From: Xestospongia bergquistia
Taxonomy: Eukaryota; Porifera; Demospongiae; Haplosclerida; Petrosiidae
Length of the DNA stretch: 64,000 nucleotides
Assembly: GCA_963965975.1 (NCBI GenBank)
Contig: OZ014411.1
Span: 21,294,446 to 21,358,445 of the forward strand
Direction of reading: 5' to 3'
Both the position numbers and the translations under genes were made by a program. Below are positions 1-1,510 of this stretch, in pieces. The notes below the pieces were generated by a model. That model made no database searches and was not told the origin of the DNA. It saw only the letters and a program-made list of their open reading frames with translations. Positions within the stretch are counted from its first letter, which is position 1. Each line of letters opens with the position of its first letter.

Positions 1-1510
1 AACCATCAAAAATGATTAGTAGTCTTTCCCCATGTGTTTCATCAAGCCACTTAATTACAGTGGCAATATCATGGCTTTTGTAAATACACTGGAGGAGTTC
101 CTTCAGTTCACTAGCTTGAGTAATCTCGTCTTTTCTTAAAGGACAGTAAATAACTAAGTTATAGCTTTTATGCATAAGTTCTCTTTTTGTCCACATATTG
201 ACTAATTTACGACACAGTGTTGTTTTGCCAATACCAGGAGGACCATCAACTACTACTCTAAGAGATTGACCAGTTTCACTTGGTTTAAGTATATCCTGGA
301 TGTCTATTTGTTGACTTTGAGTAACTTCAGGTATTTTATCAACGAGTCCTCGCAACATACACCATTGTTTCTGTAGCATTGTTTGAGAAGTGGTATCTCC
401 ATCTTGTATTTCTAACATTGCTAATCTTCCAAAGAAATCTTGTCCAACTCGTGGTGGCCAGTCTGCAGGGACAATAGGTTGATATTTGTATTGGTCTAAT
501 ACAATGTCACAATATTGCTGAATATCAGGTGGAGCTTTATCATCAGTATTTTCACCTACATAAACAGAACAAACAATAGCCAGTCCTGACACTATTAATA
601 ATTATAATACTAGTATTTTAATCAATGTTTATAATTGAAAAGTTGGCAATACATGCTAAATTGTAGAGCTTAAAAAGGAAGAGAAATAATTGGTCAGAGT
701 ATAACTTTATTTTATTTGATGCCTTCTACATTTGAGACGTAAAATTGATAAAGAGCAAATGGATTTGATAGTGACTTATAAACGTTTATAGTCAGAATTA
801 GTTGTACCTATTATATATTCAAAGCATACAAAGTTGTCATGATCATGCAGTATCTTCTTTGAAGCAAGTAGACATACATATGTACATATATATACTTAAT
901 ATACCTAGAAAAATATGTAAAATTTTCTTACTGTTAGCGATATTTATGCATAGTCTCTTTCTCATTTCACAAGCAGTGCACCTCTCTCCACAGTTGTCAA
1001 CTGCTTTAACTAACTCCTCCCAAGATGGGTGACACGAATGGGCTATCCACCAATCTAAAGCTTCCTCTATAATCAAGTTATAGTTTTCACTTATTCGAGC
1101 AGATTCTCTCAGTCTCTTTCTTTCATCAAGAGGTAAATGAAGGAATTGAGACAATGTTTCCCAGTGGTTAAAAACTTGAAATCCACATTCATGAAGAAGG
1201 ATAAACGCATTGTTTGAAGTGAGTTCATAATCTGTGAACAATTGAAGTTTAACATAACATACATATAATTTTAATTTAAATTACTAGTTTTAGGCGGCCC
1301 GGGGTTAATTTCAATATCACCTGATAAAACGAGAAGAAGCAAAAGTACATGCAATATAACATAACAAACAAAATAGGTTGATGCACCAGACAATGATGAC
1401 TTGAACCAAAGAGGATTGGTAGTTCTTTCTTGAGTCTTTTTAGTCTTATATGATGTCTGATGACAACACCATAATCCAATAGTCGTTCTCCATTGAGAGA
1501 TATTAATCAT
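1..1510 (-). CDS. NLR-type immune receptor, 5' part (2A - DEATH - NACHT), runs off window
   Basis: Intracellular pattern-recognition receptor of the NLR class. Three exons read in frame. Exon 1 (1510-1285) starts at the first ATG after an in-frame stop and encodes about 60 residues, a hydrophobic stretch and the 2A motif DIEINPGP. Exon 2 (1231-932) carries a DEATH-like domain, with hydrophobic heptads and the C-terminal pattern LDWWIAHSCHPSWEEL. Exon 3 (555 to beyond base 1) carries the NACHT domain: P-loop GPPGIGKTT near base 220 and Walker B LLIIFDG at the left edge. Introns 1284-1232 (53 bases) and 931-556 have GT and AG ends, and both are phase 1 and keep the frame. The family normally ends in leucine-rich repeats, which would lie outside the window. 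The domain calls are strong. The exact start is less certain because a further 5' exon could exist. Confidence 0.85.
1295..1324 (-). promoter_or_regulatory. 2A ribosome-skipping peptide site inside the NLR first exon
   Basis: The codons spell SGDIEINPGP, an exact match to the 2A consensus D(V/I)ExNPGP. At such sites the ribosome omits the Gly-Pro bond and continues, so one mRNA yields two products. A leucine-rich hydrophobic run (VILHVLLLLLVL) lies directly upstream, so the upstream product could act as a signal or anchor peptide when skipping fails. The reading frame continues through a 53-base intron into the DEATH domain. 2A motifs at the N-termini of NLR proteins have been described in sea urchin and, as I recall, in sponge. 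Skipping activity here is inferred. Confidence 0.85.

Follow-up and report, generated by a model that had tools for sequence, protein, structure and literature searches.

A probable skip-or-anchor 2A leader exon in front of an NLR-type receptor gene of the sponge Xestospongia bergquistia

The best-known ribosome-skipping (2A) peptides are those of viruses and retroelements; for cellular genes, the NLR receptors of sea urchins are the best-known source. The presence of 2A sequences in non-LTR retrotransposons was reportedly described by Odon et al. in 2013. According to the passages of the sea urchin study drawn on here, an N-terminal 2A of 26 residues, present on NLRs of Strongylocentrotus purpuratus, skips at about 80%, and when skipping is blocked a reporter goes mainly to the Golgi (PMC4981915). 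The same passages sort sea urchin 2A sequences into those of retrotransposons and those of NLRs, mention 2A-bearing non-LTR retrotransposons, and state that the fate of the freed leader was not investigated (PMC4981915). A paper from 2024 gives NLRs, in its introduction, as the cellular example of 2A (PMC11512398), and one from 2021 on 2A sequences makes no mention of sponge, Porifera or sea urchin (PMC8623073). For sponges, a 2026 paper on the NLRs of Dysidea avara describes putative membrane-bound NLRs with transmembrane domains, which were first reported in Amphimedon; the main text of this paper does not contain the terms 2A-like, NPGP, ribosome skipping or signal peptide (PMC12909245).

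The window analysed here, a stretch of 64,000 nucleotides from the genome of X. bergquistia, contains the start of a receptor gene on its minus strand (Table 1). By its sequence, the region 1285-1510 is a first coding exon that ends in a 2A and is joined in frame to a Death-like and a NACHT exon. From the ATG at 1510 it reads MINISQWRTTIGLWCCHQTSYKTKKTQERTTNPLWFKSSLSGASTYFVCYVILHVLLLLLVLSG-DIEINPGP-PKT (...HVLLLLLVLSG-DIEINPGP-PKT) up to a GT donor at 1284.

Table 1. Features of the receptor gene, in window coordinates.
Feature	Position	Strand	Remarks
Leader exon, first coding exon	1285..1510	(-)	72-residue leader to NPGP, then PKT and one base; phase-1 donor
Conserved N-terminal motif MINISQWRTTIGLWCCH	1460..1510	(-)	Family form MI[DN]xxQWRxSIGLWxCH; column conservation; dN/dS of the region 0.30
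Hydrophobic leucine-rich segment FVCYVILHVLLLLLVL	1325..1372	(-)	Best 15-residue Kyte-Doolittle mean 3.06, against an average of 0.94 for shuffles of the same leader
2A motif DIEINPGP	1295..1318	(-)	Predicted skipped Gly-Pro bond between the codon ending at 1298 and the codon beginning at 1297
Intron 1	1232..1284	(-)	53 nt, phase 1, GTAATT...TTCACAG
Death-like domain exon	932..1231	(-)	Phase 1-1; HMM built from the family; PF00531 via relatives
Intron 2	556..931	(-)	376 nt, phase 1
NACHT exon, start	1..555	(-)	NACHT match from about 259; continues beyond the left edge of the window

Much of what a first-pass annotation had read from the letters of this gene stands. The exact motif it reported, DIEINPGP at 1295-1318, has the form D(V/I)ExNPGP that marks 2A and 2A-like elements, and is preceded, in the manner of 2A context, by a tract of long hydrophobic residues (VILHVLLLLLVLSG). 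The leucine-rich run that it pointed out is far more hydrophobic than shuffled versions of the same leader (Table 1). Its in-frame joins agree with computed splicing, in which 1510-1285, 1231-932 and 555-1 form a single open frame; when intron 1 is retained, a stop follows ...PPKTSNLN. Its NACHT domain is confirmed by the full exon, taken from a stretch overlapping the left edge of the window (PF05729, E 1e-24). The leader is thus placed as in sea urchin NLRs of the SpNLR2A type, N-terminally on a Death-NACHT receptor, with the Death domain assigned through the family. In two open frames further downstream (219 and 495 aa), NLRC4_HD2 scored below the cut-off and no LRR was found at E <= 1e-4.

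The Death domain of the first-pass annotation is supported by way of relatives, while the window's own exon, searched alone, matched no Pfam family. That exon shares 37-44% identity with 15 further exons of this type, and of these 16 aligned exons (the window's included, though not itself matching) 10 match PF00531 at E <= 0.01, the best at 1.4e-4. At other loci (L030 among them) the leader is followed by a second kind of exon, which is Death-like by cross-matches of custom HMMs only; Pfam Death was unmatched in all six members tested. Locus L035 (C8:6.32 Mb) has two exons after the leader, each with a weak Pfam Death match (E 1.8e-4 and 3.6e-4), and a Death score of 22.0 bits against a cut-off of 22.6. 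Contig C8, on which it lies, has seven 2A sites, and the NACHT search found no place there. When the Death-like alignment was compared with PDB sequences, an engineered repeat protein (E 0.0009) and a chorismate mutase (0.9) were returned; both were taken as chance matches.

The window's leader belongs to a large family. Four non-overlapping patterns for D[VI]ExNPGP, run over the whole genome (146.46 Mb in 21 contigs), gave 161 sites: 75 with GATATTGAR, 60 with GATGTTGAR, 11 with GAYRTVGAR and 15 with GACRTTGAR. A pattern that allows any second residue gave 164, and its reversed control gave 0. Since only about 0.035 motifs per genome, or 1.5e-5 per window, are expected at the base composition of the window, a chance origin of the motif is excluded. 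The counts of leaders rest on 101 of the 161 sites, which were read and yielded 100 distinct rows. Sixteen of these rows were not counted as leaders, being LINE-type, of a kind found on contig C7, divergent, or truncated or frame-broken (e.g. L013, L058, L101, L102). The other 84 share a common leader, 62-78 residues long to the end of NPGP, with the layout MI[DN]xxQWRxSIGLWxCHQIPY.TKK, a variable linker, a leucine-rich ...LTFSLVLFLLLLLILSG, (SG)D[VI]ExNPGP (mostly D[VI]ELNPGP) and a phase-1 donor. The best 15-residue hydropathy mean is at least 2.0 in all 84, and all 84 have a phase-1 GT no more than nine codons past NPGP, at the identical place in 77; of the other phases, phase 0 has a GT there in 6 leaders and phase 2 has one in 34. 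The window's leader is 39-54% identical to the 29 leaders aligned with it. On these features the leader exon is a module. Its start is, by comparison of these leaders, real: mean pairwise nucleotide identity per codon among the 84 is 1.00 at the ATG, against about 0.3 in the codons upstream and 0.38-0.50 in the four nearest the ATG, and an in-frame stop lies within 20 codons upstream of the ATG in 66. Searches for known relatives gave little. The window's exon was unmatched in Pfam, 30 members tested against Pfam gave two weak matches, in one member each (E 0.05 and 0.099), and the family had no match among PDB sequences; 7 pattern matches in GTDB contigs and 21 in IMG/VR included no confirmed relative.

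At 36 of 37 loci, the window's among them, a phase-1 acceptor joins the leader to a Death-like exon across an intron with a median length of 54.5 nt (n = 36). As a control for phase at the same 37 loci, 12 have an AG in phase 0 and 2 have one in phase 2; of the AGs closest to the start of the Death-like domain, 36 are in phase 1. The acceptor is mostly ATAG followed, after the junction, by A[AG]CT, and in most loci the Death-like domain begins directly after NPGP-K-T. Distances among leaders and among Death-like exons are correlated (Mantel r 0.64 over 37 loci; largest of 999 permutations 0.42), as expected if both exons mostly duplicate together.

A 2A lies on the same strand within 6 kb upstream at 48 of the 95 NACHT places found in the genome, and on the opposite strand within 6 kb at 2. 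At 20 places a same-strand 2A lies downstream, as tandem arrays would give. The 47 places without a same-strand 2A within 6 kb upstream include all 29 on contig C2 (8.83-9.15 Mb); thus, the genome has NLR groups both with and without the leader. By position, 49 of the 161 2A sites stand before NACHT, at least 19 before ankyrin repeats (a lower bound, with 65 of the listed ankyrin places typed and 150 of 6319 candidates scored) and 5 before GBP, leaving 88 unlabelled, LINE-like sites included. Reading of the exons adds three ankyrin genes (L026, L039, L027) and one TPR-CHAT gene (L011). The open ankyrin frames can be very long (1,647 codons in L020, 1,705 in L026), and L030 carries a GBP domain. 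With NACHT, ankyrin, GBP and TPR-CHAT genes behind it, the leader is not a peculiarity of NLRs. The TPR-CHAT gene, the sole CHAT case found, has a diverged leader (MIDIGVWRARIGLFN...DVEVNPGP) before a TPR frame, with a CHAT frame adjoining.

In a tree of 83 leaders, 57 are labelled by class; among these 57, all 13 ankyrin leaders fall into a single group (96/95) and the 5 GBP leaders into another (99/95), with 25 of the 80 inner branches well supported and several long rows, including the window's and the CHAT row, doubtfully placed. Three class changes suffice for the labelled rows; when the 26 unlabelled rows are treated as a group of their own, ankyrin requires 4 changes and NACHT 13. In the best tree the NACHT leaders do not form a single clade, although such a clade is not rejected (p-AU 0.258). 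The simplest reading of these relationships is a single transfer of the leader to each of the ankyrin, GBP and CHAT classes, followed by multiplication along with the genes.

The window's exon is likely to be a 2A ribosome-skipping leader in front of an NLR-type receptor that works by a choice between skipping and anchoring, with the skipping, its efficiency, the membrane targeting and the topology all predicted. Most ribosomes would be expected to skip the Gly-Pro bond. Skipping would result in a free, membrane-type leader peptide of 71 residues, whose hydrophobic part lies towards the C-terminus, and in a separate cytosolic receptor, which would start with Pro-Pro-Lys-Thr just before the Death-like domain. 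If instead the Gly-Pro bond is made, the hydrophobic segment stays attached as a possible signal anchor, which could bring the receptor to the ER membrane. The timing of these events can be judged from the position of the segment. The tunnel of the ribosome has a length of 30-40 residues, and in the sequence the hydrophobic segment lies about 9-24 residues from the peptidyl-transferase centre at the moment of the skip decision. Thus, the segment is probably still hidden when skipping occurs, and targeting would be possible only after a failure to skip; a ribosome that does not skip would expose the segment later and may then be taken to the ER. In this way it is plausible, by analogy with the sea urchin experiments, that one gene serves two compartments. 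The segment is preceded by 46 residues, which is many for a cleavable signal peptide. The positive-inside rule, by which membrane topology is predicted, would place the Death and NACHT domains of the unskipped form in the lumen, an odd location for them.

The sites were found through the 2A motif, so conservation within that motif in the leader alignment is by construction. Among the 83 distinct leaders, the N-terminal residues M, I, Q, W, R, I, G, W and C are present in 93-100% of the ungapped rows, and pooled dN/dS is 0.30 for the N-terminal motif, 0.87 for the linker and 0.22 for the hydrophobic segment (the pairs in the pools are not independent). A search for the N-terminal motif that was independent of the 2A gave 121 places. 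In 84 of the 100 places listed, a 2A lies 165-210 bases downstream, and in 82 of these 84 it is in frame at varied lengths. The other 16 listed places are without an exact 2A within 400 bases (e.g. C4:754043 and C10:4732630); they may be decayed or broken copies, chance matches, or leaders that do not skip. Because purifying selection acts on about the first 20 residues, a mere signal sequence is not a sufficient explanation of the leader. The N-terminal motif is also left unexplained by the sea urchin precedent. Its conservation suggests that the freed 71-residue leader may have a role of its own. It is quite possible, though we would not expect it, that this role is the whole story: skipping would be essentially complete, the leader would be a second product, a small tail-anchored-like protein made 1:1 with each receptor, and dual targeting would not be the point. 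The motif is conserved apart from the hydrophobic segment, in a way that a signal sequence alone does not need, and the odd topology of an unskipped Death-NACHT protein would no longer have to be accommodated. However, the leader has no convincing match in Pfam and none among PDB sequences that would suggest a function, and its motif could instead serve translation, the mRNA or targeting.

It is improbable that the leader is a plain signal anchor or signal sequence in which NPGP is a relic with little skipping activity. Strong conservation of the hydrophobic segment is what such an anchor would show, but a relic would decay. Among the matches listed, LINE-like copies included, the final Pro is kept in 141 of 143 and the Asn in 141 of 142 copies that are otherwise intact for D[VI]E[LF]NPGP, whereas variation is seen at third codon positions, at the x residue and in the choice of V or I. 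The search for variants of the final Pro had 12 matches in its reversed control, so the two exceptions that lack Pro need not be true copies. In sum, sequence comparison indicates constraint on three parts of the leader (N-terminal motif, hydrophobic segment and 2A) and next to none on the linker.

That the leader is a piece of the ORF1 of a LINE-type retrotransposon and not of a receptor gene is most improbable: the same genome does have N-terminal, leucine-rich 2A ORFs that continue into a stretch resembling a PHD finger (L017-L019, L023, L033), but these are without the MI[DN]xxQWR motif, whereas the receptor leaders all have their phase-1 GT and, at all but one of the 37 loci, the phase-1 join to a Death-like exon. 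The window's leader, tried as a LINE ORF1, has no PHD in frame; it ends in PKTSNLN-stop, has a donor after PKT and matches no Pfam family. The 2A part itself may share ancestry with LINE elements, and is too short to tell.

The PHD-like ORFs (L017, L018, L019, L023 and L033; C1:10.9-11.1 Mb, C1:20.4 Mb and C4:8.6 Mb) constitute a second class of 2A users. Their 2As (DVESNPGP, DIESNPGP, DVEINPGP, DIELNPGPGND) follow a leucine-rich stretch and precede a cysteine-rich, PHD-finger-like stretch, as in a LINE-type ORF1; Pfam PHD was tested for L033 only. Three sites on contig C7 (C7:5,979,092, 5,987,727 and 6,004,083; L034 is one of this kind) have the same 2A letters. At L034, the C7-kind site that was read, a different short leader, MADSIPIMYRREDTIFLLRCG-DIESNPGPG, is followed by a GT; some 2.2 kb beyond it comes a frame that is weakly kinase-like. 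This leader is possibly an independent N-terminal 2A.

Extended to the whole family, the skip-or-anchor reading would make the leader a portable exon, used by at least four defence-type classes (Death-NACHT, Death-ankyrin, GBP and TPR-CHAT), through which about a hundred genes would share one translational switch. Skipping would release a conserved membrane micropeptide and a cytosolic sensor; failure to skip, for example under translational stress, would give a membrane-anchored sensor; and the near-invariant QWR..IG.W would be a working part of the system, beyond a mere signal. This wider proposal is offered tentatively. If it holds, one translational trick may decide the destination of a whole receptor set.

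The principle of an N-terminal 2A on a receptor is known from sea urchin NLRs, the precedent that the first-pass annotation had cited (PMC4981915, in the passages used). Its second precedent, a report on sponge NLRs, found no counterpart: among the literature matches listed, none concerns 2A leaders of NLRs from sponges or other non-echinoderms, and work on Amphimedon NLRs may hold prior notice. The listed matches also include none in which a 2A is combined with a gene of the ankyrin, GBP or CHAT class. The membrane-bound sponge NLRs described in the Dysidea avara paper, as far as its main text presents them, could be such leaders (PMC12909245). New here are a longer, modular leader whose N-terminal motif is conserved, the presence of this leader on four architectures, and the scale; the genome-wide exon family, its use by other gene classes and the purifying selection at its N-terminus had been overlooked in the first-pass annotation. 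A leader exon under selection stands on several presumed immune-sensor architectures, with an extra conserved part that is predicted to be released in each round of translation. This makes the purpose of cellular 2As testable with simple reporters, and draws attention to the freed leader peptide.

Of the described systems, SpNLR2A, as presented in the passages of the sea urchin study used here, is the closest (PMC4981915). In both animals, D(V/I)ExNPGP and the hydrophobic residues before it are N-terminal on Death-NACHT receptors, and in both a sizeable share of the receptors is concerned, about 35% (85/241) in the urchin and 48 of the 95 NACHT places in X. bergquistia. The urchin element, however, has 26 residues; the sponge leaders are not short 2As of this type, but have 62-78 residues (72 in the window), which include a conserved motif at the N-terminus and the variable linker. 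Unlike the urchin element, the sponge leader occupies a separate exon that has its donor in phase 1, and ankyrin, GBP and CHAT genes have it as well. For the urchin, skipping and targeting have been measured; for the sponge, they are predicted from sequence. The 2A retrotransposons are similar in that the 2A lies in retroelement ORFs, and LINE-like ORFs with an N-terminal 2A occur in this genome too; however, those run towards a PHD finger, without MI[DN]xxQWR or a splice to a Death-like exon. With the 2As of aphthoviruses and their relatives, as they are treated in the same passages, the leader shares the C-terminal motif and an upstream context that is less conserved (PMC4981915). The viral 2As lie inside polyproteins, whereas the 2A of the window ends a first exon.
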